Shown here: in pieces, positions 8,224-41,196 of the stretch
Numbering within the stretch: position 1 is the first letter of the stretch
How the letters are laid out: the number at the start of each line of letters is the position of its first letter
NCBI GenBank assembly: GCA_001804805.1
Contig: MHBH01000007.1
Span: forward strand, 1 to 41,196
Reading direction: 5' to 3'
DNA: 41,196 bases
Source of the DNA: Lentisphaerae bacterium GWF2_49_21
Lineage (GTDB): Bacteria; Verrucomicrobiota; Lentisphaeria; Victivallales; GWF2-50-93
Position numbers and translations under genes: made by a program
Notes under the pieces: generated by a model
The model's input: only the letters and a program-made list of their open reading frames with translations
The model's database searches: none
Told to the model about the DNA's origin: nothing

Positions 8224-8493
8224 ATGGATAATTCAGTTATTGCCTTCAGGACAGAATTTAAAAACAATCTGATTGAATGGCTTCAGATGAAGAACAAAAC
8301 ATCGGAAGATATCGATGACAACGAACCCCTGTTTGGCAATGGATTAGGGCTTGATTCCCTTGACGCCGTCGAAATTGTCATCATGCTTCAACGCAAGTAT
8401 AATATCCCGCAGAAGGACATCGAGTCGCGCAAAGAGATTTTTGCGACTTTAGCCACGTTGAGCGACTACGTTCAGGAAAAATCCGGACGGTGA
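8224..8493 (+). CDS. Acyl carrier protein
   Basis: An 89-residue acidic helical protein with the phosphopantetheine attachment motif LGLDSLDAVEI; Ser45 is the expected attachment site. It begins the second operon of the cluster and is followed three bases later by a ketosynthase, the classic ACP-KS order. It would carry the growing chain as a thioester between the ligase, the KS pair and the tailoring enzymes. Length and motif are normal for dissociated type II systems. It differs clearly from the second ACP at 10515, suggesting separate roles such as loading and elongation. Confidence 0.93.
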   Translation: MDNSVIAFRTEFKNNLIEWLQMKNKTSEDIDDNEPLFGNGLGLDSLDAVEIVIMLQRKYNIPQKDIESRKEIFATLATLSDYVQEKSGR

Positions 8494-8496
8494 AAT

Positions 8497-9675
8497 ATGG
8501 CTCAATCATCTCCTGTCATCACCGGTATCGGATGTATTTCCTGCGTCGGCGATGGCTACAATGACACTTCCGCCTCCCTCTTCCAGCAGCCTGTTCTCCC
8601 GGCACCATCAATTTACACTGGCAGCACGCTTAATTTTCCGGTTTTTGAATTAACTGGCTTCAAATCGGAGAATGATCAGCCGGGGGGGCGTACCCTGGCC
8701 CTGCTGCGGCATACGTTGAAACAGGCACTCCGGCAGGCAGATCTGTCACCGCACGAACTTGCATCACTCCGTGTCGGAGTCTGCATTGGAACCACCATCG
8801 CATGCCAGTTGAACAATATTCCGTTTTATGCCGAACTCCGGGCCTCAGGCACCGCTCCGGCAAAACCATTGATCAATTTCATCAACGGTTCTCCTGCGGA
8901 GTGGATCCGGCGTGAATATTCGCTCAACGGTCCGGCATTAGCCGTTTCAAATGCCTGTTCGTCAGGAACCGATGCCATTGGCATGGCGTCCCTGTGGATA
9001 CGTTCTGGACTCTGCGACATTGCGATTGCTGGAGGAGCCGATGAACTCAACAAAGTACCCATGGCAGGTTTTCATGCCCTGGGTGTCTGCTCCAAGTCAC
9101 CGTGCAGACCTTTCGATCGCAGTCGCAACGGCTTGAATCTGGGAGAGGGAAGCGGTGTTGTCATCATAGAATCAGCTGAGTCTGCAAGAAGACGCGGCAT
9201 CAGCCCGCTTTTCTCTGTTGCAGGATATGGAACAGCCGCCGATGGCTTCCACATTACAAAACCCCGCCCTGACGGTTCAGGACTTGCGCAGGCCATCAAT
9301 TGCGCCATGCAAACTGCTGGCATACAATCTTCTGACATTGCATTTGTCAATGCACATGGCACTGGAACAGGCGGTAACGACAGCTTGGAAGCATCTGTTC
9401 TGATACGTATCTTCGGGACAAATGTCAAATATATGTCAACGAAACGCATGACGGGCCATACTCTCGGAGCTGCCGGAGCGCTTGAATTCATCTTCACCGG
9501 TATAATGCTGTCAGAAGGCAAGACTGGACATTCTCACGGATTCGAAAATCTGCCGGATGACATTGCTGTGGCACCACTCACTTCACCGATCCCAATCAAC
9601 GGTAAATTCGCACTGTCCACTTCTTTGGCTTTCGGTGGCTGCAACAGCGCTTTAATTGTTGAAAGGCTGGGGTGA
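8497..9675 (+). CDS. Beta-ketoacyl-ACP synthase II-like (full length)
   Basis: A complete 392-residue condensing enzyme with all catalytic residues: Cys154 in SNACSSGTDA, His287 in NAHGTGT and His321 in GHTLGAAG, plus the C-terminal LAFGGCNSAL glycine-rich loop. It extends ACP-bound chains by decarboxylative condensation. Length is close to the family norm of about 400-415. It begins three bases after the ACP and is followed by a catalytically dead partner, repeating the arrangement at the left edge. The two KS copies are related but clearly divergent, so the pairs may act at different chain lengths or on different substrates. Confidence 0.95.
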   Translation: MAQSSPVITGIGCISCVGDGYNDTSASLFQQPVLPAPSIYTGSTLNFPVFELTGFKSENDQPGGRTLALLRHTLKQALRQADLSPHELASLRVGVCIGTTIACQLNNIPFYAELRASGTAPAKPLINFINGSPAEWIRREYSLNGPALAVSNACSSGTDAIGMASLWIRSGLCDIAIAGGADELNKVPMAGFHALGVCSKSPCRPFDRSRNGLNLGEGSGVVIIESAESARRRGISPLFSVAGYGTAADGFHITKPRPDGSGLAQAINCAMQTAGIQSSDIAFVNAHGTGTGGNDSLEASVLIRIFGTNVKYMSTKRMTGHTLGAAGALEFIFTGIMLSEGKTGHSHGFENLPDDIAVAPLTSPIPINGKFALSTSLAFGGCNSALIVERLG

Positions 9676-9679
9676 AATT

Positions 9680-10498
9680 ATGTTTATCTCGGGAATTGGC
9701 GCCATAAGTGCAAGCGGAATCGGCACGGAAAATCTGGAAACACCTGGACAAAACAGCGAAATCCAGGATAGAAGCATCAGTAAGGATGCGTTGCTTTCAG
9801 TCAAGAACAAATATGATCTCCGACGAGCCGACCGATACACCGCTATTGTCATGGCTTCCGCAGTTCAAGCATGCGCCGATGCAGGCTTCGCTGATTGCGC
9901 CATGGCAGACACTGGAATCATCATTGCCAGCTCATTCGGACCGCACCGGACAACTTTTGCATTCCTTAATGATATCCTTGATTACCCGGAAGACCAGGTG
10001 CTTCCCACCACTTTTTCACACTCTGTCCACAACGCCGCAGCCTCTTATGTGGCTTCATCCCTGCAAATAAGAGGCCCGACAATATCCCTGACCGGGTTCG
10101 AAGACCTCTGGTTCGATGCCCTGGAATTATCTGACGTATTCCTGAATTCCGGCTGCTGTCAAAGAATTGTACTGGTCGGAGTCGAGGAATTGGCGCTTCT
10201 CACCCAGAGCCTCCCCAGCATTTTGCCTGACAGTTTCCACTGCAGGCTTCTGGAGGGTTCCGTGGCGCTGCTGCTTTCATCCACCCCTGAAGGCAAAAAT
10301 TACACATCCATCACTTGCAGCCGCCGGTCCTCCTGCGGGGAAAAACCGGACCGGCATTCTTCTTGTGCAACAGCAAACGATTTTCTCGGTGGCGCTTTCC
10401 AGACCGCGCTCAAGGCTCTTGCTTCGAGCAACCAGCCGGGAACAACTATTTCCATCGGTTCAATTAGCGGTTTAATAACATTCTATAAAACAATATAA
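9680..10498 (+). CDS. Ketosynthase-like protein without catalytic Cys (chain-length-factor type)
   Basis: A 272-residue N-terminal ketosynthase-like domain (Ketoacyl-synt_2 type). The N-terminus ISGIGAISASGIG matches the KS start, and the segment TTFSHSVHNAAASYVASSLQIRGP is the usual region before the nucleophile; the Cys position is Phe140 (SLTGFEDLW). The final glycine-rich third of a complete KS, with both His motifs, is missing. ATG 9680 is preferred over TTG 9656 because it follows GGGGTGAAA and removes an overlap with the upstream KS. It most likely pairs with the KS at 8497 and sets chain length or stabilises the dimer. It is longer than, and only weakly similar to, the first such protein at 460. 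Confidence 0.75.
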   Translation: MFISGIGAISASGIGTENLETPGQNSEIQDRSISKDALLSVKNKYDLRRADRYTAIVMASAVQACADAGFADCAMADTGIIIASSFGPHRTTFAFLNDILDYPEDQVLPTTFSHSVHNAAASYVASSLQIRGPTISLTGFEDLWFDALELSDVFLNSGCCQRIVLVGVEELALLTQSLPSILPDSFHCRLLEGSVALLLSSTPEGKNYTSITCSRRSSCGEKPDRHSSCATANDFLGGAFQTALKALASSNQPGTTISIGSISGLITFYKTI

Positions 10499-10514
10499 TG
10501 ACGAGGTTAATTCT

Positions 10515-10769
10515 ATGGAAAATCTTACTGCGGATCAAGTCAAGGCATGGCTGCTTGAGGAAATCTCCGCCATTACTGGCACAGATGCAAAACTCATCGA
10601 CCCTTCTCTTTCTCTTTCACAGAACGGCATTTCTTCCATGGGATTTGTGGAACTGCTTATAGGAATTAGCCGGGAATTCAAGATTGAACTTCTCAATTCG
10701 GAAATCTCTCCCTCCGATGTCGCCTCCGTTAATGCATTTGCAGCCAAAATTGCCAGAACAGGTAGCTAA
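10515..10769 (+). CDS. Acyl carrier protein (second)
   Basis: An 84-residue acyl carrier protein with the attachment motif QNGISSMGFVEL; Ser41 is the likely phosphopantetheine site. The motif lacks the usual Asp before the Ser, a variation common in carrier proteins of secondary-metabolite loci. It lies 16 bases after the CLF-like gene in the same operon. Having two distinct ACPs fits aryl-polyene and related systems, where one carries the starter or finished chain. It could also be the partner of the AMP ligase at 12159. Confidence 0.88.
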   Translation: MENLTADQVKAWLLEEISAITGTDAKLIDPSLSLSQNGISSMGFVELLIGISREFKIELLNSEISPSDVASVNAFAAKIARTGS

Positions 10770-10770
10770 A

Positions 10771-10821
10771 GCGGGCTTTGCCCGCAACCCAAACTCGAAA
10801 TCCGAATATCGAAATCCGAAA
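10771..10821. repeat. GC hairpin followed by a 12-bp direct repeat
   Basis: A 6-bp stem with a TTT loop (GCGGGC/GCCCGC, 10771-10785) follows the ACP stop. TCGAAATCCGAA then occurs twice, at 10795-10806 and 10809-10820, two bases apart. The gap to the next gene is 96 bases. It looks like an inserted dispersed repeat rather than a terminator, since no T-run follows. Confidence 0.6.
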
Positions 10822-10865
10822 CAAATACGCTTAAAAACATAGAACTGTGAAATAAAGGCACCTTA

Positions 10866-12146
10866 ATGCTGGTCTCAAGAAGAAAACATTATTTAAACGG
10901 AATTGACTGGGTTGCCGCTGCGCTCAACTACCAGTGCCGCCTTACACCGGCTCGTGGGAATAATTTCCTGATCGTTCTTGAGCTCGGAACGCCCTTCTCT
11001 TCCGCCAAAACCAAACGTCTGCAGGACGCTTGCAATGACTTGCCTCCCCTCCTTAACGGACGCATCAGACGAGCCTGGCATCTTGCTCCATACTGGCAAT
11101 CTGGCCCAGGTCCCGAAGTTCTGTTTTCAGAATGCCCGGCAGAAGACAATTCAGGCGTCGTCCCCATCCTCCAGGAATTTGCCAACGAACCACTGCCAAA
11201 CAGCACAGGCATTGAGATAAAACTGATTTCCTGCAAAGGATCAGGATATCTCATCTTCAAATTCAGCCATCTCCTTTTTGATGGTCGAGGTGCCGAACTG
11301 TTCCTGAGAGCCATTGACGAAGGACATTCCGATCTCATGGCAATGCATCCTGGATTGCCGCATCCTGAACTTAATAACTGGACAAAACAGTTCCAGGCAG
11401 GGAAAATTGTCCACCGCAAAAGGCTGGCAATTCTGGAGAAATATAAGATCGCAGCACTCCCGTCCGGGCACTTGACTGCCATGCCTGCAAGATTTCGAAT
11501 AATACAACTTGACTCCGCCTCCAGCGCTGATATTCAGAAGAAATCTGAACGCGAAGCCGGTCCATTCATGTTTGGCATTTACCTGGCATCTATCGTCTGC
11601 CTATGTTTTGATCATTTCTTGAATTTACGCAGCAGCAAAGGAGATATGCTGCTGCCGATGTCGGTTGATTTACGGGGATTTGGCGTTCCCTCCAATACTG
11701 TTTTTTTCAATCAATGGAGTTTTTCACCGCTGATCGCCGAACGCGATGAACATAGGGAGCTTGCTGACTGGATAGTCAAATTGAAAATGCAAATGATGTC
11801 AAATGCCGCTGAAAAAATCCCCCAATCACTTCGAACTGCATCCTTGCTGTCCCGTATCCTCCCCTTGCCAATCATGTCACTCTTTGCAAAAAACATCTTC
11901 GGCCAGACCGCCGGAAGCATCATGTTCTCATTTGTATCAGGAAGCTCCCTCCCACCGGCTTTTATCGGAACTCCATTGCTCAACATGTACCACCTGCCAC
12001 TCATGCCGCCGCATCCTGGCATCGGAGTCTTCTTCAACAGTTTCGAAAATCGTATCAATGCTGTAATTTCCTACCGGAAAGGGATACTTTCAGAGGATGA
12101 AATTGACGAATTCACCCATTCCATTGAAAAATGCATGCGACAATAA
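10866..12146 (+). CDS. Condensation-domain / acyltransferase-fold protein
   Basis: A 426-residue protein with one clear motif, FSHLLFDGRG (about residues 136-145), matching the HxxxDG core of the chloramphenicol-acetyltransferase-like superfamily that includes NRPS condensation domains, wax-ester synthases and polyketide-associated acyltransferases. The segment MSVDLRGFG later in the protein is another conserved element of this superfamily. Such enzymes join an acyl thioester to an alcohol or amine. In this operon, between an ACP and an acyl-AMP ligase, it probably releases or transfers the ACP-bound chain. Stand-alone members have been seen in aryl-polyene-like loci, but the acceptor here cannot be stated. 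Confidence 0.65.
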   Translation: MLVSRRKHYLNGIDWVAAALNYQCRLTPARGNNFLIVLELGTPFSSAKTKRLQDACNDLPPLLNGRIRRAWHLAPYWQSGPGPEVLFSECPAEDNSGVVPILQEFANEPLPNSTGIEIKLISCKGSGYLIFKFSHLLFDGRGAELFLRAIDEGHSDLMAMHPGLPHPELNNWTKQFQAGKIVHRKRLAILEKYKIAALPSGHLTAMPARFRIIQLDSASSADIQKKSEREAGPFMFGIYLASIVCLCFDHFLNLRSSKGDMLLPMSVDLRGFGVPSNTVFFNQWSFSPLIAERDEHRELADWIVKLKMQMMSNAAEKIPQSLRTASLLSRILPLPIMSLFAKNIFGQTAGSIMFSFVSGSSLPPAFIGTPLLNMYHLPLMPPHPGIGVFFNSFENRINAVISYRKGILSEDEIDEFTHSIEKCMRQ

Positions 12147-12158
12147 TTGACTGGAAAC

Positions 12159-13583
12159 ATGAATATTTATAGGACAATAACGAGTGAAGTCGGATCTTAT
12201 GATGGCATCGCCATCATTGAGGATGACAGGACCATAAGCTATCAGACATTTTTTGCAGATATTGAAAAAACTGCTGCTATACTGATATCCTCTGGAATCG
12301 CTCGCGACACCAGGGTTGCCATCAAAGGAGACAACTCCTATGAATATGTGACAGTCTGCGTGGCGCTTATCTCCATCGATGCGGTAATTGTCCCGATATC
12401 AATCCACGCCACTGCGGCGGAGTCGGATAATATTATCGAACGTATCGCTGTAAATTTCCTTCTCTCCGATCAGCCGGCTGCAAGCGGACTCCCGCTGTTT
12501 GAAGGAAATATTCACCCATACAAAATTATTCCGATCAACACCGAAATATGCCCTGTTTCATTGCCAGATAACCGCCACCCGGCCTTCATCCGCTTTTCCT
12601 CCGGGACAACTGGGACCAGCAAAGGAGTATTACTCTCCCATCATGCCATTCTCGAGCGGACTGCAGCCTGCACCGGATTGGGGATTACCCGCGGCGAACA
12701 TATCCTCTGGGTATTGGACATGGCATTTCATTTTATCGTTACGATCCTGCTTTTTATCCGCAAATCCGCGACCATTGTCATATGTGGACGCCCCGTAGAA
12801 ACCAAGATGATTTCAATCTTGCGGAAACTCCCCATCCGTCTCGTGTATGCAACCCCCTACCATTACCGTTTGATGTTCAGTTCATCTGAACTCAAAAAGG
12901 AGGACATGTCGGGAATTCGCCTGTTGATTTCAACTGCAATGAAACTCACAGCAGCCGATGCAAATGACTTCAAGAATAAATTCGATGTCAATTTGGCGCA
13001 GGCCTATGGAATTATTGAAATTGGTTTACCCTGCCTGAACAACTCAGGCACAACTGAAAAGATTGACTCGGCTGGTCAGGTTCAACCTGGATACAGTGTG
13101 AGGATTAATAACCACGGCCCGGACGGCATCGGCGAAATCTTTATTCGAGGTTCCGGTATGTTCGATGCCTATTTTTCCCCGTTCCTTCTGCGGAATCAAG
13201 CATGTCCCGATGGATGGTTCAATACCGGTGACCTTGGCTATGTCGACAAAGACCGTTATCTCTTCATTGTCGGACGCTCAAAAAATGTGATAAATTTTCT
13301 GGGCATGAAAATATTCCCAGATGAGGTTGAAGCCATCCTCTGTTCTCATCCGCTGATCGCCGAAGCCCGGGTCTATGGCAGGCAAAATCCTCTTTTCGGT
13401 GAAATTCCAATTGCTGAAATAGTTCTTAAAAATCCAGAACAACCCTCCGATCTGGCACGGCAATTGCGTCGCTACTGCTTTTCCCGTTTATCCGAATACA
13501 AAGTTCCAAAAGAATTCGCTGTCGTAACCTCTATTCCAAAAACTCTAAGCGGTAAAATAGCCAGGAACAAGAGAACAATATGA
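12159..13583 (+). CDS. Acyl-AMP ligase (ANL superfamily)
   Basis: A 474-residue adenylating enzyme. The P-loop-like motif FSSGTTGTSKG is at about 146-156, the adenine-binding YGIIEIG follows, the hinge region reads WFNTGDLGYVDKD, and the C-terminal domain carries the adenylation Lys466 in LSGKIARNK. It activates a carboxylic acid as acyl-AMP and passes it to CoA or, in this context, to an ACP. In aryl-polyene loci the equivalent gene loads the aromatic starter acid. ATG 12159 is chosen; TTG 12147 would abut the upstream stop. It overlaps the methyltransferase start by four bases. Substrate is not predictable by eye. Confidence 0.88.
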   Translation: MNIYRTITSEVGSYDGIAIIEDDRTISYQTFFADIEKTAAILISSGIARDTRVAIKGDNSYEYVTVCVALISIDAVIVPISIHATAAESDNIIERIAVNFLLSDQPAASGLPLFEGNIHPYKIIPINTEICPVSLPDNRHPAFIRFSSGTTGTSKGVLLSHHAILERTAACTGLGITRGEHILWVLDMAFHFIVTILLFIRKSATIVICGRPVETKMISILRKLPIRLVYATPYHYRLMFSSSELKKEDMSGIRLLISTAMKLTAADANDFKNKFDVNLAQAYGIIEIGLPCLNNSGTTEKIDSAGQVQPGYSVRINNHGPDGIGEIFIRGSGMFDAYFSPFLLRNQACPDGWFNTGDLGYVDKDRYLFIVGRSKNVINFLGMKIFPDEVEAILCSHPLIAEARVYGRQNPLFGEIPIAEIVLKNPEQPSDLARQLRRYCFSRLSEYKVPKEFAVVTSIPKTLSGKIARNKRTI

Positions 13584-14377
13584 AACGCTACCGAATTAAA
13601 GAGTTTCATGAATCTCGACATTGCCCCCAATACTGGCGCGACGGCATGACCAATTTTCTTACCTTTTTTGCTATTTACACAGACGTTTATCGACAGGCTG
13701 TTCCGTCAGTCGCTGACCTTCTCCGTCAAAGCAGAGAGGATACCATCGTTGACCTCTGCAGTGGCAACGGCTTCTACATGTTGCGATTTTTAAAATCATT
13801 GAAAGAACTTGCTCCAGGCCGGGATGTCCGGGTCCTTCTGACCGATCGTTACCCCAGCAGGAGTTCAGCCTGGGAAATCGCGAAACTTAAAAATGGAAAT
13901 GTCGGATATCTCCCTGAACCGATTGACGCCATCGACGCCTTGCGCAGACTTCCAGGAATTCATGTCATGTTTTCGGCCATGCACCATTTTGATGAAGAAG
14001 AGCTAAGGACATTGCTGCTAATCGCAGCAGCCAATGGACGCCCGGTTGCCTTTTTCGATTATTCCAGACGCAACCTGCCTGCGGACATACTGCCTCTCCT
14101 GCTGGTACCACTTCTAATTTTCCTGACTGCTCCGCTGATTCGCCCATTTTCGTGGCGCCAGCTCTTTTTCATCTATGTCATACCCGCAATTCCATTCCTT
14201 GTAATGGTAGACGGTTTTATCTCCCGGCTTCGGAGCTACAATTGCCTGGAACTAAGTGAAATAATTAAAACTTGCAATAGCGTTCAAGATTATCATTGGG
14301 AATCCGGTAAATTCAATTCCTTAATGGGTCTTTGCTCTGTTCGTTATATTATCGGGTCACCAAAAAAACAAGAATAG
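13580..14377 (+). CDS. SAM-dependent methyltransferase with a membrane segment
   Basis: A 265-residue class I methyltransferase-like protein. The SAM-binding glycine motif is IVDLCSGNGFYMLRF (about 56-70), the acidic residue after strand two is in LLTDRYPS, and a MHHFDEEEL segment follows. A strongly hydrophobic stretch (about 172-215) is an unusual insertion that should dock the enzyme at the membrane. It is the last gene of the operon, overlapping the ligase stop by four bases. In comparable loci a methyltransferase modifies the aromatic head group of the polyene. A lipid or ACP-bound substrate is inferred from location. Confidence 0.75.
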   Translation: MKRYRIKEFHESRHCPQYWRDGMTNFLTFFAIYTDVYRQAVPSVADLLRQSREDTIVDLCSGNGFYMLRFLKSLKELAPGRDVRVLLTDRYPSRSSAWEIAKLKNGNVGYLPEPIDAIDALRRLPGIHVMFSAMHHFDEEELRTLLLIAAANGRPVAFFDYSRRNLPADILPLLLVPLLIFLTAPLIRPFSWRQLFFIYVIPAIPFLVMVDGFISRLRSYNCLELSEIIKTCNSVQDYHWESGKFNSLMGLCSVRYIIGSPKKQE

Positions 14378-31535: not shown

Positions 31536-31706
31536 TTGGTCCTCCTAAAATGAGCAGGTTAATATTTTCAGAAACCCTGCAAGATAGCATTCGTATTTAA
31601 AAAGTAAATGGGATTTCCCTTCCGGGAAATTTCATTTACACTCTTGATACTGTAATATTAAATTGTAGATTCAATCTTTTCATGAATACATAAAATGGGG
31701 TGGGAA

Positions 31707-32441
31707 ATGCTTGCAAGGACTTTTTCGGCAGCGATAAACGGCGTTGACGCATATACGGTAGAAGTGGAAGTGAACGCCACAGGACAGGGCGAGAACACGA
31801 CCGTATCTGTTGTCGGACTTCCAGATGCGGCAATCAAGGAAAGCCGGGACCGCGTCAGGTCCGCACTGCTGAGCTGCGGATACACGCATCCGTTCGGGAA
31901 CACGGTTGTCGGGCTGGCCCCGGCGGACATCCGGAAGGAGGGAGCCGCATTTGATCTTCCCATAGCGTTAAGCATGATTGCGACTACTGGAAAACTCGAC
32001 CGGGAAAAACTTTCAAGGACCATGATCGTCGGCGAGCTGGCCTTAAATGGAAGCGTTAGGCCGGTGAAGGGATTGCTGCCCATAGCCGTCCATGCCAGGA
32101 ACCTCAAGGATATCGATTCACTGCTGGTTCCGGTACAGAATGCGGCGGAAGCCGCGGTAGCGTCCGGAAAGATTCCGGTATATCCGGTGGAAAACCTCAT
32201 AGATGCAGTGAACTTCTTCTCGGGTTCGGATTCCAGGGAACCGTACAGGGAGACTATCGACGATGCTGTAGCAGTTTCAAAGAACAGGCCCGACCCTGAC
32301 TTCAACGAGGTCAAGGGCCAGGGCTATGCAAAACGGGCCATCGAGATCGCAGCGGCTGGCGGCCATAATATTTTGATGATCGGCCCTCCCGGGACTGGAA
32401 AATCGATGCTGGCTAAAAGAGTTGCGACTATACTTATTTGA
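31707..32441 (+). pseudogene. comM: comM/yifB (Mg-chelatase-like AAA ATPase), 5' half, interrupted
   Basis: About 244 residues of the YifB/ComM family: the start [22 protein letters not shown], the [17 protein letters not shown] block of the Lon-like domain and then the AAA domain up to [18 protein letters not shown] (Walker A). Sequence similarity to the family stops there; one more codon is followed by TGA. Complete proteins have about 500 residues and continue with PPL and the Walker B region. The 3' half is not in this window. ComM is a hexameric helicase that promotes branch migration in natural transformation. ATG 31707 is chosen from the conserved start; ATG 31695 is an extension. Confidence 0.9.
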
Positions 32442-34076
32442 TTTTCCAAGTTTGCCCTCGTTTATCAATTGTTGCAGTATTTCTTCATTATACCTTAAAT
32501 GGAACTGCGGAGATATGCGAACCTTATTGCCCCAAGTCTCATAGGCTATAGTTATCTTCCCATTGATCATGCTTTCTGCATATCGCTTCTTGTCTTCCGG
32601 GGGGAGATCCCGCAGGTCATGAAACATCCTTTTTAAAGTCTCGTCCTTCTTACGGACAAAGTCATGTATTAGGTGATCGTTGTTCTTGGCGGTCTCAAGA
32701 AGCTCAATCTTTTCTTCCTTGTCCTTGATTTCCGATTCAATACCGAGCATGTCATTCTTGATGGCTGACAATCTGTGCTTGAGCTCATTTTTGTCAAATC
32801 CATCATCTTCAAATATCGAGTACAGCTTTGCGCTGGCCTTTTCTTTCCTTTTCAGGTCGTCCTTTAGGCGTTTAAGATGCTCCTTTATTGAAGAAATTTC
32901 CTTATCATACTTGTTGGTGTCTAACAAGCTCCCCATACTTTTATTCCTGTTATATGGCAACATCAGGGGCTGAATTATTCTAAACCATACCTTGTCTTCC
33001 AAGTCCTCAGCCTTGCAAAAAGGCAATGGACATTTTTTCTTTTTGTTGGACAGAATTAATACCTGTGGTGCGGCAGCTGACCAGTAACAGGAATAATACC
33101 GTGGGAATGTTTTATCCTTTCGATATTTACCATGATGCGGCTTAACGACTCCTCCACATTCATCACAGACAAGTAGGTCTCTCAACCAATATAGGCTTGA
33201 TGCTTCTGAACGTTTGCTTTTCACCCTATTGAAAGTTGTCTTTTCCTGTATTTTGTCCCATTGGCCTTTAGATATTATTGCAGGGATAGGGAATATAATG
33301 TTAGAGGATTCGGGCTTGAGTATTTTTGTCCGGTGATGTCTTCCAGTTATTGGATCAATCTTATATTCATGTCTGTTCAATACATAGTGGCCATAATAGG
33401 CTGGATTCTTGAAGGCATAGGAAACCGTAATGGATGAAAAAGGCCTTTTCTTGCAAAGGACTCCATCTTCCTTTAGCTTAACAGCAATTGACCTGAGGGA
33501 CATTCCCAGATTGAGATACATGTTTACCATCCGCTTGTAAATTTCCGCCTGCTTGGGGTTAATTTCTAATTTACTGGTCTCCTTGTTCCATTTGTATCCA
33601 TAAGGCGGATGCCCTATGAAAGTTCTGTGATCGCCCCATTTGGACATTTTATTCTCAGCCATCTGCTCGCGTATTGCTTCACGCTCCCATTCGGCAATAA
33701 GAGCCATCAAGCCCATCATCAATTTCCCTGTATTAGTGGTGGGGTCTATGCCTTCATGTATGCTGAATAGCCTTATTCCATATTCTTTTAATAGTTCTTG
33801 ATATGTCAGATAGTCCCTGGCGTTTCTGGCAAACCGTGAAAGTCTTGTGAAGATTATGCCTTCAAAATGCTTTTTCTTGCCGTCATTTATCATTTCAAGA
33901 AAGCCATGCCTATGTTCGACCTTGGAACCGCTCTTGCCTTCATCGGCATATATCTTGACAAGCTCCCAGCCCTTTTGCTTGACATACCTGCAAATTTCAT
34001 CCTTCTGGGTAGTCAGGCTTTCGCCCTCTCTTACCTGTTCTTGAGTTGATACACGTATGTAGCCAGCCACTTTCAT
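32277..34076 (-). CDS. Large serine recombinase (integrase of the element)
   Basis: A recombinase of about 599 residues. The N-terminal resolvase domain starts [14 protein letters not shown] (nucleophile Ser about 9) and includes [10 protein letters not shown] and the helix [12 protein letters not shown] recombinase domain (about 160-260), a zinc ribbon with CDECGG and later Cys, and a long coiled coil (about 390-460) follow. The start at 34076 follows AGAGG. The last about 54 codons, from roughly 32440 down to 32277, are antisense comM, so the native C-terminus in the excised circle must differ. It stands at the end of the element facing attL, as expected for its integrase. Confidence 0.93.
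32425..32445. other. Left attachment junction (attL) of the integrative element
   Basis: At about 32430-32440 the comM sequence (coding AKRVATIL) gives way to AT-rich element DNA. The recombinase frame on the other strand crosses the same point. The exact crossover dinucleotide cannot be fixed without attR or an empty site. Confidence 0.65.
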
Positions 34077-34112
34077 AATCACCTCTGCTTTAAAATATAC
34101 TTTGTTTGCCGG

Positions 34113-34793
34113 TCAAGACCATAGGCTTTTTATATTTTCCTGAATATCCTCCTTTGTGACGTCGGCATATATGGTCGTGGTCTGGATTGAGGAATGCCCC
34201 AGTTGCTTCTGCAATCCCCTTAGATCGCGGTTTTTATGATAGTATTGGACTGCATAGCTGTGCCTAAGGGCATGGACGGACTTTCCATTTTTATATAGTC
34301 CAAGCACCTTTAAATACTTCTTGACCACCTGCTGGACAGCCTGACTTGTCCAATTTCCCCGCTGTCCCATGAACAAGTGATCATCCTTGTCTGTCCCTTC
34401 TCCTTGCCCTTGCTTCCACTTCAAAAAGGATCTGAGGTGCGTCTTGAGATGTTCAGGAATTTGAACCGCTCTTGATTTGGAGCCTTTGCCGTCACGGACA
34501 AAAAGCTCTGATTCGCCGTAGCCCGTCATAATGTCGCCGCACCTTATATTTGCGGTCTCCGACACGCGCAGGCCTGTTGATGTGAGAAGGTCTATTGCCA
34601 TCCATTCCCTGACACCTGTCACCTTGCCTCTTTCCAAGGCGGTCTCCGCACGCTCCCTTACTGAACGCCGGAGCAATTTGATCTGGAGATCGCTGTAATA
34701 CTTGATGTCTGGCATTGGCTTTGGCTTGCGCCTGCTGACATGCTTTTCCATTTTCAACTCGGGGAACTCGATGATTCTGGCCGCGGTTTCCAT
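34113..34793 (-). CDS. Small tyrosine recombinase/integrase
   Basis: A 226-residue protein consisting almost only of the catalytic domain. The residues of the family are all present: Arg in STGLRVSE, Lys in KGSKSRAV, His-x-x-Arg in HALRHS, His in LGHSSIQ and the nucleophile Tyr in TTTIYADV. The usual N-terminal SAM-like core-binding domain is missing, replaced by about 50 basic residues. The start at 34793 is uncertain, since the frame extends to 34826. It follows the serine recombinase's start by 37 bases on the same strand. It may resolve dimers or promote inversion rather than integrate the element. Confidence 0.88.
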   Translation of the reverse strand: METAARIIEFPELKMEKHVSRRKPKPMPDIKYYSDLQIKLLRRSVRERAETALERGKVTGVREWMAIDLLTSTGLRVSETANIRCGDIMTGYGESELFVRDGKGSKSRAVQIPEHLKTHLRSFLKWKQGQGEGTDKDDHLFMGQRGNWTSQAVQQVVKKYLKVLGLYKNGKSVHALRHSYAVQYYHKNRDLRGLQKQLGHSSIQTTTIYADVTKEDIQENIKSLWS

Positions 34794-35272
34794 AATACAT
34801 ATTCCTTTCATAAGTTGCATACCCATAGTAACTTATGACTAATATATTATGGGAAATGGAGGGATAAAAGCCGTGGATATGATTTTCTATTGAGTTTTTT
34901 AGGGGACTTCAAGCACCCTTTTGAATATGACAGAAAATCAAAAAAGGCTTAAACTCAATAGAATTCAATGATTATATATTGAGAATGGAGGTGTGAGGAG
35001 AATGTGGGATTGCTGGACACCATTAAAAACTTATTGGTAATATATTAATAAGCCTTCCTTATAATTCGGACGGGGGGCACCTTCAAGGGGTGTTTGAATG
35101 GTTTGATTTGGGGAAGCGGTAAGGGAGGATGTGAAAATCGCCCTTTTTTTCTCGCACTTCGCCACCCGTCAGGGAGTGTTAACTAAGCATACCTTATAAT
35201 TATACATATATATATATCTATAAATACCTATCTATCCCTTATACCATATTAACTAATAAGTTTTTAAATTCT
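34794..35272. other. AT-rich non-coding region with inverted repeats
   Basis: No gene is seen. It contains TTCTATTGAGTTT (34885-34897) and its exact complement (34951-34963), a nested GATTTTCT/AGAAAATC pair (34881-34888 with 34932-34939), and a third TATTGAG at 34977-34983 that could compete for pairing. Further right is an AT-rich repeat (35030-35066) that recurs at 39011-39049. A run of TA dinucleotides at about 35204-35220 and the 17-mer at 35247-35263 end the region. It has the make-up of a replication origin or recombination site. Confidence 0.6.
35247..35263. repeat. 17-bp repeat TATTAACTAATAAGTTT (left copy)
   Basis: The same 17 bases recur exactly at 38975-38991. This copy lies just beyond the 3' end of the polymerase-like gene. 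Part of it, CTAATAAG, is the complement of CTTATTAG found at the start of the neighbouring AT-rich repeat. Confidence 0.75.
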
Positions 35273-36676
35273 TCATGTGGATTCTTTGACTTCGCAGTCA
35301 AAACCACCAGTATGATGTTTATAGGTGCTTTCCATGACCTGCTTAAGCTCGGTAGAATATTTTGCCTGAACAATAAAACTGTCATGGACGGGAAGGATCG
35401 GAATACCCTTGTCGATGAAATGTGAAACTATATCCAGAGCTATCTTCGCATCCTTATTCATAAGCTTGAGGCCAGCTCTACTAAAGAAGTATTCTTTTAT
35501 CCGCTCGTGCTTCTGCTTGAATTTATCAATGATCTTTCTGACAGTAAGTCTATTGGAATCCAATATCAGCTTCATTCCATAATCATCCATAAGCATTTTA
35601 TTGCCCGCCCTTATGGCCTGTGTTTCAGTTGCACTGTTTATCATTCGTAGCAGTATTAGTTTTAAGATGCCCCGAAGCTCATAGTTGTCTGAAATAAGGG
35701 TATATGGATCTTTGGGGAATTGTATACTTTTGTCAGCATACATCAGCATTAAATGATATCCGCTGAAGTCCATTTCAATTCCTTTCTGACTGCCAATAAA
35801 TATTTCCTTTCTTTCCTTCCTTTTTATTTGTTGCTGTCCGTGTCTTGTATATAGCCGACCTCCCAATTCAAAGCTTGAATTATTGTATACAGCATGAAGA
35901 CTGGGATATAGCTTTCTCCTATATCCATCCGTATCTGTGTACCAGATACTATAACTTGCATTAAGGGTGTTTGCCTTTTTTAAGCGTTCCCTGACTCCAT
36001 TTGTCAATTCGGTATCGTCGTATTGCTTGTATTTTTTATTTTCATCTCGCAGAACAACCAGTTCCACAGGTTCATACTTGTAGAGATCATCTCCTATGCT
36101 TATACCCGTGGATTTTGCCATATTAAGAAGTTTGTCTGTAGGCCATATTCTGCTCAGCCAAGCTTTTCCATTTTGGAAATGTTTACCTTTTTCCTTTTCA
36201 ATTAATCCTTCATTTTCAAGTTCGTCGAGTATTGCTTTTAAGGTTGTGTATCCTATGAAATTATATCTATTAACCGGATATTTGTTGGGGCTCTTGTTCA
36301 GGGCAACAGTATTTTTGCCTTGGCTCAAGGCAAAGAGGAGATTGGCAATCAATATTCTGACAAGCTTAATTTTGCTGTCTTCCTTGTAGACCTTGTTTAT
36401 ATTTAGGCCATTATATACGCGGCGGCATAGACGATCTATTTCTTTACGTTCCTTTATTTCATTTGCAAAATCTATGCCAGCGTCAAATATAATATTATTG
36501 CCCAGACGTTTTGCCTTCTTTTTACTTTTATATTCATCTGTTGCTGCCCTTCGTGCGAGATATGCCCTCATGGCATTTTTTATATAGCTCACACTGCGGT
36601 TGTCTTCTATCAGGGGTGAATGGATGGAGTTCATCTTTAAAGATATATCGACTGCTTTTGGATATTTTGTTCTCAC
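35273..36676 (-). CDS. Short family-A-polymerase-like protein with winged-helix region
   Basis: A 467-residue protein with a DNA-binding-like segment (about 138-166, YTTLKAILDELENEGLIEKEKG, winged-helix type) and a C-terminal half showing polymerase family A signatures. Motif A is GIEMDFSGYH with Asp303. A motif-B-like helix is RGILKLILLRMINSAT with Arg335 and Lys339. Motif C is PVHDSFIV with Asp432. A thumb or primer-binding domain and the exonuclease of Pol I are absent. Such short polymerases occur in mobile elements and are usually annotated hypothetical. It may replicate the element or fill gaps. GTG 36676 or ATG 36634 could be the start; neither has a strong ribosome site. Confidence 0.7.
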   Translation of the reverse strand: MRTKYPKAVDISLKMNSIHSPLIEDNRSVSYIKNAMRAYLARRAATDEYKSKKKAKRLGNNIIFDAGIDFANEIKERKEIDRLCRRVYNGLNINKVYKEDSKIKLVRILIANLLFALSQGKNTVALNKSPNKYPVNRYNFIGYTTLKAILDELENEGLIEKEKGKHFQNGKAWLSRIWPTDKLLNMAKSTGISIGDDLYKYEPVELVVLRDENKKYKQYDDTELTNGVRERLKKANTLNASYSIWYTDTDGYRRKLYPSLHAVYNNSSFELGGRLYTRHGQQQIKRKERKEIFIGSQKGIEMDFSGYHLMLMYADKSIQFPKDPYTLISDNYELRGILKLILLRMINSATETQAIRAGNKMLMDDYGMKLILDSNRLTVRKIIDKFKQKHERIKEYFFSRAGLKLMNKDAKIALDIVSHFIDKGIPILPVHDSFIVQAKYSTELKQVMESTYKHHTGGFDCEVKEST

Positions 36677-36840
36677 GCTCGCTACTCTTTTTGGAATGGC
36701 CGAATGTATCTTGAAGAATACTTTTATTATTACAACTCACAATTATATTACTCATGTTCTTTTAAATCAAATAATTACGTGGCTTTTGACAGGCGTTTCA
36801 ATTAGAAAACTGGTAATTTTCGAGAATAGGAAATGATGTC

Positions 36841-36937
36841 AGAGGGCACGCCCTCCCTTGGGCGTGTTCCTTCTGCATTCCTATTCAGGCATACCAGTGC
36901 CTCTAATTGAGTGTGGTTGGGATGCGCCCTCTTTTTT
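36841..36937 (+). ncRNA. Candidate structured RNA with intrinsic terminator
   Basis: The segment folds as a three-way junction. The closing stem AGAGGGC (36841-36847) pairs with GCCCTCT (36926-36932) and is followed by five T residues. Inside are a 7-bp hairpin CACGCCC/GGGCGTG (36847-36866) and a 5-bp hairpin AGGCA/TGCCT (36887-36902). It lies between the polymerase-like gene and the zinc-ribbon gene. It may be a small antisense or copy-control RNA, or simply a terminator-like leader. No clear promoter was found, although TTGACA occurs at 36786-36791. Confidence 0.45.
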
Positions 36938-37003
36938 GGAAATATTCCATCCAAGATGCCTGTCATAGGCTGATAGACTAACCAAAGAAAAGAGGGGGTA
37001 GTT

Positions 37004-37660
37004 ATGAATAAGTCAAAGCAAAATGTTGAAGTCATATGTGACAAATGCAAAAATACGCTCGTGGTGGATGACGAATCTTGGTTCGGGCAGGATGCATATT
37101 GTCCTAATTGCAACAATGAGGTATATATCCCGTTTCCTGAGCCTGATGAGCTTAAAACATCGATTCAGGCGAAGCAGGACGCTTCATATGCTTCGGACAC
37201 CAAGAGATGTCCTTATTGCAAGGAGGATATAAAGAAGGACGCAATAAAGTGCAAACATTGCGGAGAAATGCTTGATGGAAAACCTAAAGAAAAAATTGCA
37301 ATCCCGCAACAAGTAGCCCCGCAACAAGTAGTCCATGGGAACGTTATTATAAAATTTAGACCTTTTCCCCTCCTTATTGCATGGGTGGGGGCAATAATGC
37401 TATGCACTACTGGCTTTGACATGCGTCAGCATATCTCTCCTGCAATAGCGGACATATTAGGATTCTTGGCGAAGACATTAGATCTTCCAATAACAATATT
37501 TGGAACACCAGCAGGGCCAATATACGCATTTATATTTTTACTTATCTGTTCACCAGTGTTTCGTTATTCCGCCTGTTCTGTTTGCGGAGAGAAAGTCGAA
37601 ATGGTAAATATCGAAAAGAATATTCACGTTTGCCCGTCCTGCAATGCGGTACTGTCATAA
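37004..37660 (+). CDS. Zinc-ribbon membrane protein of unknown function
   Basis: A 218-residue protein with three zinc-ribbon-type Cys sets: CDKC...CPNC near the start, CPYC...CKHC at about 70-88, and CSVC...CPSC at the end. Two hydrophobic helices (about 124-142 and 172-186) lie between the second and third. The ribbons should face the cytoplasm on both sides of a hairpin in the membrane. GAGGGGG precedes the ATG. It starts a run of three small genes in the element, none with a known function. Confidence 0.75.
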   Translation: MNKSKQNVEVICDKCKNTLVVDDESWFGQDAYCPNCNNEVYIPFPEPDELKTSIQAKQDASYASDTKRCPYCKEDIKKDAIKCKHCGEMLDGKPKEKIAIPQQVAPQQVVHGNVIIKFRPFPLLIAWVGAIMLCTTGFDMRQHISPAIADILGFLAKTLDLPITIFGTPAGPIYAFIFLLICSPVFRYSACSVCGEKVEMVNIEKNIHVCPSCNAVLS

Positions 37661-37683
37661 AGGAATATAAAGGGTGAAGCGAC

Positions 37684-38157
37684 ATGGGGACTTTTATAAC
37701 AGTTTCAATTATGCTTATAGGATTGATGATACTGATAGGGTTGCTTAGGAAAAAACCAAACATAGAAGGAGTTGTTGACTACAGAGCTGAAGGGAGCATC
37801 AATGATAGAAATAGAGTTTTAGACGTTCATTTTCATTATCAATCAGAGATTGAGATTTATTATAAAGACAGGGATTCTTCACAAGGCAGTCTCGAAAAAG
37901 CTATTACTGCTTGCGAGCAACAGATCGCTATATCAAGAGAGGTGGCATCGGCTTGGAAAAAGGAATATAAAGATTCCCTGCCAAGGCATAAAGGGTTTGA
38001 GCAATTGGCAATAATCAGAGAAAAGCAAAATAATTATGAGGAAGCCATTCGAGTTTGCGAGCAAGCTATGAAGCAAGGCTGGGATGGTGACTGGAAGAAA
38101 AGGATTCAACGTTGCAGGAAGCGTATGGCAAAGAGCCTAACGAAATGTTCCAGCTGA
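37684..38157 (+). CDS. Small membrane-anchored helical (TPR-like) protein
   Basis: A 157-residue protein with one N-terminal transmembrane helix (about 4-22) and a helical soluble part. The part includes SLEKAITACEQQIAISREVA and YEEAIRVCEQAMKQGW, a spacing that suggests one or two tetratricopeptide-like repeats. It follows the zinc-ribbon gene by 23 bases, so both probably share a transcript. No specific function is recognised. Confidence 0.65.
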   Translation: MGTFITVSIMLIGLMILIGLLRKKPNIEGVVDYRAEGSINDRNRVLDVHFHYQSEIEIYYKDRDSSQGSLEKAITACEQQIAISREVASAWKKEYKDSLPRHKGFEQLAIIREKQNNYEEAIRVCEQAMKQGWDGDWKKRIQRCRKRMAKSLTKCSS

Positions 38158-38168
38158 TCAGCTTCATT

Positions 38169-38871
38169 GTCTTTTATGGACTAAAGAGGCTTGCTATTGA
38201 TAAAGGTAAGAATAGGAGGAAAATATGAAAAAGTTCAATTGTGATATCCAAGGGCATCTTGTGGTCTTATCTCATGCCATAATACTCGCTAGAATGTTAT
38301 CAAAAACAGATTCCGAAAGGGAACATCTGTTCGACTTGATGGATGCTGTCCATAATACGCCCAGTTATATATCAAATCCTGAATCTTGGGGTGCCGATTA
38401 CATATCTGCATACTATGCCCCGTATGATAAAAAGTGGGGCAGGAAATATGGCTCTCTTGTCAATATGCATTTGAAGTCTTCTGGTTTGCATGAGGACTGA
38501 ATCTCTTTTTATGGATCATAGAGCCTTCCCTTTTTATGAGCCAGCATATGATATGCTTTTTATGGGCTAATGCCGTTGACTGCTATTACACGAGAATTCT
38601 TTTTATGGACAAAAGTTCAAGCCATCAAAAACTCTATTTGTACACCGTTTCCTTTGATTTTATGGGGCTTTAGGGTATTGGATATACATCAGCTTAAAAA
38701 CCATGGTACTCTTGTTGTAAATGGTGATTTCCCATATCCCCTTATTTTTATGGGATAACTTCCAATATCAGCAGTTATACAGGAGTTCCTTTTTATGGAC
38801 TAGGGCTCCTAGCTGCTAAAAACGTGTTTTGAGGCGGATTCTTCAGCGTTTTCATGGTTTTATGGGAAAGG
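38169..38871 (+). repeat. Array of nine degenerate TTTTTATGGRCTA motifs
   Basis: Copies begin near 38171, 38505, 38531, 38557, 38599, 38658, 38745, 38790 and 38858, all in the same orientation. The core TTTTATG is invariant; GGACTA or GGGCTA follows in the best copies. Spacing is irregular (25 to 87 bases after the first gap), so it is not a CRISPR array. Most of the stretch from 38501 to 39085 has no gene. Confidence 0.65.
38225..38500 (+). CDS. Hypothetical protein of 91 residues
   Basis: Not recognised. The start is well supported by AGGAGG eight bases upstream. The protein is mostly helical, without membrane segments, with a C-terminal aromatic-rich part (SWGADYISAYYAPYDKKWG). A copy of the TTTTATGGACTA motif lies 40 bases upstream and others begin directly after its stop, so it is embedded in the motif array. 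Confidence 0.6.
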   Translation: MKKFNCDIQGHLVVLSHAIILARMLSKTDSEREHLFDLMDAVHNTPSYISNPESWGADYISAYYAPYDKKWGRKYGSLVNMHLKSSGLHED

Positions 38872-38974
38872 GCATGGGGCTTAATGAAAAATTGCAGTAT
38901 TCCGCTTGTAAATGATAGGAATTGATAGGATTAAGGCTGTCCCATAGCCATAAATTGTCTTTGAAGTAGTTTAT

Positions 38975-39049
38975 TATTAACTAATAAGTTTCTTGTCATC
39001 AGCTTAAATTCTTATTAGTAATATTATAATAAAGCCTTACCCTTATTTT
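38975..39049. repeat. Right copies of the 17-mer and the AT-rich repeat
   Basis: TATTAACTAATAAGTTT at 38975-38991 is identical to 35247-35263. CTTATTAGTAATATTATAAT and the following GCCTTACCCTTAT (39011-39049) align with 35030-35066. The two parts together also form an imperfect inverted repeat, CTAATAAG/CTTATTAG. Confidence 0.7.
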
Positions 39050-39085
39050 CCCCGCGCTTTAACTTGTATCACTTTCCGCTTTTAG

Positions 39086-39128
39086 TCAGGCCTTGAAAAG
39101 GGGCTTCATGATATTACCCTTATAGCTG
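39086..39128. repeat. 43-bp repeat with CCTTGAAAAGG (left copy)
   Basis: Aligns without gaps to 39806-39848: an identical CCTTGAAAAGG, then GATATTA and TAGCTG at matching positions. It lies just outside the 3' end of the metallophosphoesterase gene. Confidence 0.7.
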
Positions 39129-39135
39129 ACAATGA

Positions 39136-39684
39136 TCAGTTCCTGTCCGCAATATGTATTCGCTTGGAGCCATAAACTCCAATAACTCGCGTCTCGCCAA
39201 CTTGCGTCTCAATGTTCTCATGCTGATGCCCATGAATAAACAGCCGGGGCTTTGCGCGATGAATGTAATCAACAAAGGCTTGGAAACCAATATGAATTTC
39301 GTCGTCCTTGTCGTGAATCCCCTTTGGTGAATTGTGTGCGACGAAAACATCAACAGCCGGAAAAGATCTAAGCATGTGCCTAACCTCGGACTGTTCGTAA
39401 AGAAAGTGGCCTCGTGGTTTATATTTCCAAGAGCCGTTGAATCCACCGAAGAGCAGTCCTGTAAAACGCTCGACTTTGAAATGTAGATCTGTGATGGGAG
39501 AGGGAAATGCTCCTGCGCTGTCATGGTTGCCTTTGACGGCGAAAATACGCGAGGAGTGAGATTCCTTTGCTACCCTAAGGATCACATCGTCGGATAGGTC
39601 TCCACATGAAATTACAGCGTCAGTTAATTCGCTATCAGGTTGCTGGAAAAAGAAATTGTCATCGGCAATAACCAGAAGGTTCAT
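39136..39684 (-). CDS. Calcineurin-like metallophosphoesterase
   Basis: A 182-residue metallophosphoesterase-fold protein: SCGDLSDD, GNHD, VFVAHNSPKGIHD and HGHQH give motifs II to V of the family. The first motif, normally D-x-H near the N-terminus, is VIADDNFF, with no His, so one metal site may be altered. Targets of the family include phosphoesters in nucleic acids or nucleotides. The gene is flanked on both sides by related 43-bp repeats and opposes its neighbours, so it looks like an inserted cassette. A phage-defence or nucleotide-signalling role would be speculation. Confidence 0.85.
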   Translation of the reverse strand: MNLLVIADDNFFFQQPDSELTDAVISCGDLSDDVILRVAKESHSSRIFAVKGNHDSAGAFPSPITDLHFKVERFTGLLFGGFNGSWKYKPRGHFLYEQSEVRHMLRSFPAVDVFVAHNSPKGIHDKDDEIHIGFQAFVDYIHRAKPRLFIHGHQHENIETQVGETRVIGVYGSKRIHIADRN

Positions 39685-39805
39685 AAATTACCAACTTCCC
39701 ATATTTTCAATATAACCATAACCGCACATACACTATGAAATATAAAATAGGAAAACCTAAAATCAAATATTTAGCCTCAAAAGCTAAGGGTATGCCTCTT
39801 CTCAA

Positions 39806-39848
39806 CCAGACCTTGAAAAGGTGCTCCGCGATATTATTCTTGTAGCTG
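39806..39848. repeat. 43-bp repeat with CCTTGAAAAGG (right copy)
   Basis: Partner of 39086-39128, same orientation, 720 bases apart. It lies just ahead of the endonuclease gene and may contain its promoter region. Confidence 0.7.
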
Positions 39849-39871
39849 GATCAAATATAATTCAGGACGCT

Positions 39872-40813
39872 ATGATTAGGATTATTTCAGTTCTTCTTTT
39901 TATATTCTCAATATCTGGCTGGGCGCAGATCGAACTTCCCAAGTATGAAGCGAATGACCAGATTGTACGCCATTCTGCATATACCCTCAAATACAATGAA
40001 AAATATGAAGAGGCGGACTGGGTTGCCTACAAGCTCACCAAGTCAATGCTCATCACCAATACACCGGCAAAGAGGAAGAATGATTTCAAGCCTGATCCAT
40101 TAGTCCTCACGAAAAGTGCTGACACCCACGACTATGCCAGCAGTGGCTATGACAGAGGGCATCTTTGCCCTTCTGCTGATTTCAAGGCAGATCAGAAGTT
40201 GATGGATGAGACTTTCTTTATGTCCAATATGACACCCATGGAACATGATTTTAATTCTGGCAACTGGGAGGACTTGGAAGACCATGAACGGAGATGGGCT
40301 ATTGATAATGGGGAAATATATATTGTCACTGGGCCAATCCTAAAGGACGAACCGCAAGAGTACATTGGCAAGAAAAACAGGGTTGCTGTTGCCAAGCGAT
40401 TTTTTAAGGTCATCTTGGACTATAGGGAGCCAGAGCTCAAGATGATTGCCTTTGTTGTGCCACATAAGGGAGGGCTGGATGATATAAGCATATATGCCAT
40501 GACTGTTCGGGAAGCTGAAAAGATTACTGGCTTTGATTTCTTTTCGACTTTGCCCAAGGACATACAGGATAAGCTTGAAACGGAATTGGACTTTCAGAAA
40601 TGGGGATTGCATACACCTTCAACCAGATATAATCAAAAAGCTGAAACAGTATCAAATACGCCAGAGGCAAGACCACTGTCCCCACGTCCTCAAGGGGCTT
40701 CAAATGTGAATGAAGACCAGATTGTTTTATATGTCTTGGCAGGTCTCGGAATAGTATTGGTTGTCCTTGGAATCGTGATTTTTATTGGATTGAGGATGAA
40801 CAAAAGAAAATAA
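39872..40813 (+). CDS. Secreted, membrane-anchored DNA/RNA non-specific endonuclease
   Basis: A 313-residue nuclease of the NUC1/EndoG beta-beta-alpha metal family. A signal peptide (about 1-20) is followed by the catalytic DRGHLCPSADF motif (His as general base), then FFMSNMTPMEHDFNSGNWEDLE with the metal-binding Asn. The C-terminal end has a Pro/Ser-rich linker and one transmembrane helix (about 286-308) with a KRK stop. The catalytic domain should therefore face outside, tethered by its tail. ATG 39872 is chosen for the signal peptide; the frame extends to 39821. Role could be nutrient DNA uptake or defence against incoming DNA. Confidence 0.88.
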   Translation: MIRIISVLLFIFSISGWAQIELPKYEANDQIVRHSAYTLKYNEKYEEADWVAYKLTKSMLITNTPAKRKNDFKPDPLVLTKSADTHDYASSGYDRGHLCPSADFKADQKLMDETFFMSNMTPMEHDFNSGNWEDLEDHERRWAIDNGEIYIVTGPILKDEPQEYIGKKNRVAVAKRFFKVILDYREPELKMIAFVVPHKGGLDDISIYAMTVREAEKITGFDFFSTLPKDIQDKLETELDFQKWGLHTPSTRYNQKAETVSNTPEARPLSPRPQGASNVNEDQIVLYVLAGLGIVLVVLGIVIFIGLRMNKRK

Positions 40814-40987
40814 GGACGATATTAATTAGACATAAGGGAATTGAAAAATAAGTAACAGGAAATGCTTTTACTATATCATGCTTGAAGTCGGACTGTTATT
40901 AAGTAAATTGTTTATGTTCTGAATGTTTTCACAGCAATATTTGGATGAAGGGTTAAAAATAATTGAAATTATAATTCAGGGGATATT
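40814..40987. other. Short AT-rich gap
   Basis: No gene, repeat or terminator was recognised between the endonuclease and the small ORF. A TTGAAG/TAAATT pair with 16-base spacing (around 40883-40910) is a weak promoter candidate. Confidence 0.25.
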
Positions 40988-41122
40988 ATGAAGAATGAAA
41001 GAGTAACAGAGAATATTGTTAGAGATATTATAAGATCACTAAAATATAATAAAAATGAAATCTTAATAGAAGAGCAAAAGAGTCAAATTGAAGAAGTAAA
41101 AAGAGGTTCGTTTTCATTTTGA
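40988..41122 (+). pseudogene. Truncated ORF resembling the start of a restriction-modification protein
   Basis: A 44-residue frame with AGGGG ahead of its ATG. The protein begins MKNERVTENIVRD and continues with IEEQKSQIEEVKR, a pattern I associate with the N-termini of N6-adenine methylase or related type I/IIG restriction proteins, which continue for several hundred residues. Here TGA follows shortly after, and a tandem AATGTCC repeat comes 30 bases later. The likeness is from memory over a short stretch, so the assignment is weak; a stand-alone small protein is also possible. Confidence 0.35.
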
Positions 41123-41152
41123 GTGGGTAAACACACAAAATATAAAATAATT

Positions 41153-41190
41153 GAATGTCCAATATCCAACACGGAATGTCCAATGTCCAA
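41153..41190. repeat. Tandem GAATGTCCAATRTCCAA repeat
   Basis: GAATGTCCAATATCCAA (41153-41169) and GAATGTCCAATGTCCAA (41174-41190) differ at one position and have a 21-base period. A diverged relative on the other strand may be present near 22634-22660. It runs up to the window's right edge. Confidence 0.7.
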
Positions 41191-41196
41191 GGAAAT

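Follow-up and report, generated by a model that had tools for sequence, protein, structure and literature searches.

A TV-Pol/divPolA2-type family-A polymerase linked to recombinases in a comM-inserted integrative element of Lentisphaerae bacterium GWF2_49_21

The window analysed here is a stretch of 41,196 nucleotides of contig MHBH01000007.1. A gene at 35273-36676 encodes a protein of 467 amino acids on the minus strand, reading from a GTG start at 36676 down to 35273. The original prediction gave the length and limits exactly and left the strand unstated; the plus strand of this interval is full of stops. The GTG start is uncertain, residues 1-36 being modelled with pLDDT below 50. The gene lies within an insertion in the host gene comM (yifB). 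The 5' part of comM (31695-32426, plus strand) is cut at 32426 and the 3' part is found on another contig, C33 (159276-160083, minus strand). A 7-bp attachment core shared by both ends, AGTTGCG (32420-32426, plus strand), marks the left end of the element. The joined element ends read AGTATAGT-TGCG-ACTATACT, and joining the flanks restores an open comM frame. Two genomes of the same genus (G002 and G003) have an uninterrupted comM, that is, an empty site. The known parts of the element are 32427-41196 of the window (8.8 kb) and about 7.7 kb of C33 (locus L105), and its total length would be about 16 kb if the gap holds nothing else. A Type IIG restriction-methylation gene appears to start at the end of the window (probable 5' end at 40988-41125, plus strand) and to continue at the end of C33, interrupted by a repeat, if our joining of the two is right. 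The split comM, the shared core and the recombinases support the earlier assignment of the polymerase gene to an integrative element.

The element encodes a Ccr-like large serine recombinase (32277-34082, minus strand; PF00239, PF07508 and PF13408), whose nearest NCBIfam models, CcrB (1e-42) and CcrC (2e-42), score below their cut-offs and whose last codons extend beyond the attachment site into comM in antisense. A tyrosine recombinase of 237 amino acids (34113-34826, minus strand) resembles XerC, XerA and integron integrases (PF00589, E 1.5e-26; NCBIfam below cut-offs). Apart from these and the polymerase, the element carries a zinc-ribbon membrane protein (37004-37660, plus strand), TPR proteins, a calcineurin-like phosphoesterase as cargo (39136-39684, minus strand; PF12850; PADLOC PDC-S10, 2e-11), a DNA/RNA non-specific endonuclease (39821-40813, plus strand; PF01223, E 1.2e-48), the Type IIG gene with a specificity subunit and several unknowns. 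Neither the window nor the C33 half yielded a recognisable D5-type helicase, SSB or OB-fold MP protein.

Three inverted-repeat sites of the form TTAACTAATAAGTTT...TTCTTATTAGTAATA run in the same direction, at 38977-39023 of the window (plus strand) and at 162398-162444 and 164158-164204 of C33. All three lie in the element, spaced between cargo genes, and the 5.9-Mb genome has no other exact match to the pattern. A half-site (35249-35263, plus strand) adjoins the 3' end of the polymerase gene, near the tyrosine recombinase. Judged from sequence, the sites may be cassette-type recombination sites or replication sites; folding one as single-stranded DNA (z -1.3) gave no support for a special hairpin. 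The phosphoesterase gene is flanked by a 42-nt direct repeat (81%; 39087-39128 and 39807-39848), as if it were a mobile cassette. On the C33 half, a cyclase-like protein (L105:6210-6842) overlaps a small membrane protein (6784-7272), by eye reminiscent of a Pycsar-type pair, a reading that is a guess because neither Pfam nor PADLOC gave a match for them.

Relatives of the polymerase were drawn from phages (263 records), two plasmids and genomes of the same order and phylum, and further from GTDB genomes (48 loci) and IMG/VR (9 loci); the final alignment comprises 61 phage and bacterial rows, 18-34% identical to the window protein. A single-sequence scan of viral contigs gave no relative and an alignment-based scan gave 9. 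Pfam and NCBIfam showed no significant match for the 467-aa protein and no polymerase match across the family; DNA_pol_A (PF00476) in Pfam was absent from it and from all 61 members. The sole strong PHROGs match, phrog_4756 (function unknown), covers residues 89-463 (E 8e-59) and is shared by every one of the 61 relatives, phage ones included. Bromodomain matches of the single sequence among solved structures (E 0.003-0.007) were judged to be due to chance. In the 61-member tree, whose deep branches are poorly resolved, the phage rows do not form one clade and well-supported branches force at least two changes. The window protein pairs with an IMG/VR contig (L066; 96/92) that also encodes serine recombinases.

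The alignment demonstrated that the catalytic motifs are retained. Motif A, EMDFSGYH (residues 301-308; 35753-35776, minus strand), contains the catalytic D303, identical in 61/61 relatives, and motif C, HDSFI (residues 431-435; 35372-35386, minus strand), read earlier as VHDSF, contains the catalytic D432, found in 60/61. An R-x3-K motif B had also been proposed. The conserved one is R335-GIL-K339-x7-N347 (35636-35674, minus strand), and the stretch RAGNK (356-360) was dropped for lack of conservation among relatives. R274, R289, D303, R335 and K339 are invariant; H431, D432, E301 and Y325 occur in 60 of the 61 rows, N236 and S433 in 59, N347 in 58 and D323 in 56. Among relatives so diverse, such conservation of the motifs is far beyond chance. 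Two positions at which Pol I selects the sugar are replaced family-wide, with H308 at the position of the steric gate E710 (His in 50/61) and N347 at that of Y766 (Asn in 58/61).

The AlphaFold2 model (pLDDT 80.8, pTM 0.80) has a family-A palm and fingers and lacks an exonuclease domain, and together with the profile matches it bears out the proposed palm polymerase of the Pol I/T7 RNA polymerase superfamily. Of the two outcomes that would have overturned the original prediction, a fold without a palm and aspartates that vary among homologues, neither is seen. Palm and fingers occupy residues 257-467 (35276-35908, minus strand), and a strand at 272-277 carries R274. Fold matches in the PDB were led by the Plasmodium apicoplast Pol I (apPol), Bst and Taq, followed by mitochondrial RNA polymerases (best E 3e-7). 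When the family profile was compared with one of five Pol I sequences (E 2e-6, spanning 189 columns), R274 aligned with R668, D303 with D705, H308 with E710, D323/Y325 with D732/H734, R335 with R754, K339 with K758, N347 with Y766 and H431-D432-S433 with H881-D882-E883. The protein shares with E. coli Pol I the palm, the fingers and the residues R668, D705, D732, R754, K758, H881 and D882, and differs from it in the absence of exonuclease domains, in an unlike N-terminal part and in the changes E710 to His, H734 to Tyr, Y766 to Asn and E883 to Ser.

The original prediction had placed the protein closer to T7-like RNA polymerases. The only features that speak for this are HDS at motif C and D-x-Y in the fingers: the comparison with four T7-type RNA polymerases, weakened by the small size of the set, reached E 7e-4 over 50 C-terminal columns at the motif-C end, against E 2e-6 for Pol I, and the kinship was dropped. 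For phage divPolA2, a role as RNA polymerase has been suggested (Yutin et al. 2024, PMC11348598). An enzyme of this kind with a single subunit, active in transcription of the genes of the element (or phage) or in synthesis of RNA primers, would agree with HDS and D-x-Y as in T7 RNA polymerase, with the loss of the steric-gate Glu and with the mitochondrial enzymes among the fold matches, ranked below apPol and Pol I. However, the T7-type motif B, R-x3-K-x7-Y, is not matched, the Tyr that selects rNTPs in T7 RNA polymerase (Y639) being Asn in the window protein, and no T7-type promoter-recognition domain is evident at 467 amino acids; we regard this role as unlikely.

A winged-helix region, as foreseen, is suggested for residues about 98-182 (36131-36385, minus strand). 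The AlphaFold2 model shows helices at 99-118 and 143-155 and strands at 124-127, 159-162 and 174-179, and profiles of MarR and PadR match weakly. When the N-terminal domain was modelled alone (pLDDT 85.8), winged-helix proteins of several families were the top matches (best E 0.007), weak singly and consistent collectively. The viral fold matches of the protein are phage divPolA2 proteins, aligned nearly in full length (406-453 columns) with the N-terminal domain included and headed by the Barba31A protein (E 5.5e-26).

The enzyme had been taken for one of a little-described class, but that class already has a name, TV-Pol (2008, PMC2579912), and its phage branch another, divPolA2 (2024, PMC11348598). 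The definition of TV-Pol comprises a pair of aspartates, an absolutely conserved Arg in a beta-hairpin, an Asp of the fingers together with RxxxK, and a thumb; a subset has an N-terminal domain and lies beside resolvases or integrases, and a prim-pol function was predicted for TV-Pols (Iyer, Abhiman and Aravind 2008, PMC2579912). The window protein has the two palm Asp, the hairpin Arg R274, the fingers D323 with RxxxK, and a gene adjacent to recombinases. Its model has two long helices, 66-90 and 99-118, that may correspond to the two-helix coiled-coil thumb of TV-Pols. The likeness extends to size, the minimal core, the presence of an N-terminal domain, linkage to gamma-delta resolvase and lambda-type integrase, and overlapping host groups (Paracoccus, Methylobacterium, Rhodopseudomonas and Planctomycetes). 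In contrast, the N-terminal domain of TV-Pols was called all-helical (Iyer 2008) whereas a winged helix is predicted here, and many TV-Pols go with D5 helicases whereas none was recognised in the window element. Of the TV-Pols named in that paper, one, that of phage Ma-LMM01, was compared directly. The family profile found no match in this phage, and its best ORF, gp030, which lies beside transposases and which we assumed to be its TV-Pol, aligned weakly (hhalign 33.8 versus a shuffled maximum of 28.3, prob 24), with D-x4-H and K-x7-N aligned and the R of RxxxK not. Because this comparison is weakly positive, TV-Pol membership is argued mainly from the feature list and the genomic context. The protein constitutes no new class; the recombinase-linked TV-Pols (Iyer 2008) fit it best, and it is a good member of a known, barely tested family.

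The divPolA2 proteins were described in Vibrio, Aeromonas and Rheinheimera phages in a paper that left DNA versus RNA synthesis open, reported no similarity for the N-terminal domain and named TV-Pol once, in the introduction, with regard to small viruses (Yutin et al. 2024, PMC11348598). They belong to the same family as the window protein over the full length, phrog_4756 spanning all 61 relatives. They differ in their setting: in the phage loci that we read, the copies are standalone, multi-copy and without an adjacent integrase, as also reported (standalone, one to three copies, barbaviruses having their own PolB; PMC11348598). In the literature searched, the name divPolA2 was found only in the preprint and journal version of Yutin et al., and no paper was found that links the recombinase-linked TV-Pols, divPolA2 and phrog_4756. 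Useful additions made here are the link between the three names, the signature of the active site, the winged helix, the reconstruction of the element and the minimal elements described below.

Of the 33 bacterial loci in which the polymerase gene has 4 kb or more of sequence on each side, 26 encode a tyrosine or serine recombinase; for comparison, the whole 5.9-Mb genome of the window's organism has 10 Phage_integrase matches. In Sulfuriferula (L052), exact 57-nt tRNA-Met repeats bound an element of 4.8 kb (GC 0.37 inside, 0.54 outside). Its four ORFs of at least 100 amino acids encode an integrase, two small proteins and the TV-Pol, which is the only polymerase-like gene recognised in it. 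In Mesorhizobium (L018), 66-nt tRNA-Val repeats bound a 7.9-kb element with integrase and TV-Pol. In the Sulfuriferula element, an ORF of 228 amino acids (L052:4562-5248) overlaps the TV-Pol start and is a candidate partner protein. On the Paracoccus plasmid pBEN, a second, broken integrase and TV-Pol pair (L006:2008-3537) lies upstream of the intact one, with 89% and 77% DNA identity to it, which suggests repeated insertion or duplication.

This constant linkage to recombinases would also suit an accessory enzyme for repair or gap filling that acts on single strands or DNA ends while the element integrates or is excised, and that is not the replicase. What counts against such a role is that integrases of the classical tyrosine and serine types work without a polymerase. 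The lack of a recognised helicase in the element agrees with the repair role, as does the occurrence of standalone copies in phages equipped with a replicative polymerase of their own (PMC11348598). A further argument against it comes from the sister island in G001, of the same genus, where comM is split by about 19 kb. Besides a serine and a tyrosine recombinase, this island encodes an endonuclease that shares 62% identity with that of the window, and a zinc-ribbon protein with a 50-residue stretch at 46% in common with the N-terminus of the window's, and it has no TV-Pol. Adjoining its serine recombinase is a 513-aa protein similar to plasmid RepB family DNA primases (E 2e-6) and to phrog_2478 primase/polymerase (E 5e-4); in Pfam it matches an ArgR-like DNA-binding domain only, the RepB-like assignment being one of weak similarity. 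Iyer et al. argued functional equivalence from such gene replacement (PMC2579912); the putative displacement here comes from a single pair of islands, whose serine recombinases and insertion points in comM differ. We consider the repair role improbable.

A defence or counter-defence polymerase, performing non-templated or toxic synthesis like some reverse transcriptases in phage defence, would be in keeping with the restriction system of the element and with the variable neighbourhoods of the phage copies (PMC11348598 and the phage loci read here). The partner conserved across relatives is a recombinase, however, and the bounded 4.8-kb element has no recognised defence gene, so that this reading seems very unlikely.

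We favour, with moderate confidence, the interpretation that the gene product is the primase-polymerase of the element, the replication enzyme of an SCC-like integrative element. That it could be the element's replication protein had been foreseen and is plausible. The interpretation is drawn from the near-invariant catalytic residues in the 61 relatives, the Pol I-like palm and fingers, the recombinase linkage, the two bounded elements with integrase and TV-Pol, and the primase-like gene in the G001 island. A recombinase, presumably one of the two encoded, would excise the element from comM via the short att core. The winged-helix domain may bind element DNA and replace the missing thumb, and the palm would start a strand de novo on a single-stranded template and extend it by two-metal chemistry at D303/D432, so that the circle is replicated after excision and before it re-integrates or is lost. 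His and Asn at the sugar-selection positions might make the enzyme less strict in telling NTPs from dNTPs, a property required for making primers, and the helicase would be supplied by the host.

A precedent is the family-A polymerase CCPol-MP, encoded next to a Ccr recombinase in SCCmec, which has primase activity in vitro (PMC7581432). Like the CCPol-MP and PolA-SSB primases, the window protein belongs to family A and its element carries a Ccr-type serine recombinase; the protein differs in scoring nothing in Pfam and in having no SSB or helicase recognised beside its gene. CCPol needs its MP partner plus the helicase operon (PMC7581432, PMC10061031) and is described as close to the housekeeping Pol I (PMC10061031), and for that reason the window protein may not share its primase activity. 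Against a replicase, a D5-type helicase or SSB accompanies CCPol and other TV-Pols, and none was recognised in the sequenced element; the standalone phage copies, in barbaviruses next to a PolB of the phage's own, also speak against it (PMC11348598). By 2020, CCPol was the only TV-Pol tested (PMC7581432).

More tentatively, and short of calling it probable, we propose that the recombinase-linked TV-Pols and divPolA2 constitute one family of winged-helix primase-polymerases with a His/Asn site in place of the Glu/Tyr pair of Pol I, acting as self-sufficient replicases of integrative elements down to 4.8 kb in size and including a subclade in which TAG is a sense codon. No biochemical test of the window protein's own subfamily is known to us, and the family offers defined, small, tRNA-bounded elements in cultured genera for clean priming tests. 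With TV-Pol, divPolA2 and phrog_4756 joined, a single test would bear on both groups, and a precise prediction on the use of NTPs versus dNTPs follows from the His/Asn active site.

Two TV-Pol genes of the same genus contain in-frame TAG codons, five in L126:15042-16328 (G056) and seven in L127:8995-10227 (G221). Neither has TAA or TGA in frame, and both give full-length matches (270 bits) with the motifs intact. The two proteins are 49% identical and have three TAG columns in common. Of 127 stops in the other two frames only 14 are TAG, the rarest of the three, and the long ORFs near both genes are almost without internal TAG. TAG is probably read as an amino acid in these genes; no suppressor tRNA was found in the stretches read near them.

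The genome from which the window derives (95% complete) has no DNA_pol_A (PF00476) match, and 10 of 14 control genomes have one; the host possibly lacks an ordinary Pol I, or the assembly has a gap there. At the other end of the window, 17-14377 holds a biosynthetic cluster, judged from the translations, with paired ketosynthases, an acyl carrier protein, two radical-SAM-like proteins, acyltransferase-like and AMP-ligase-like proteins and a methyltransferase.
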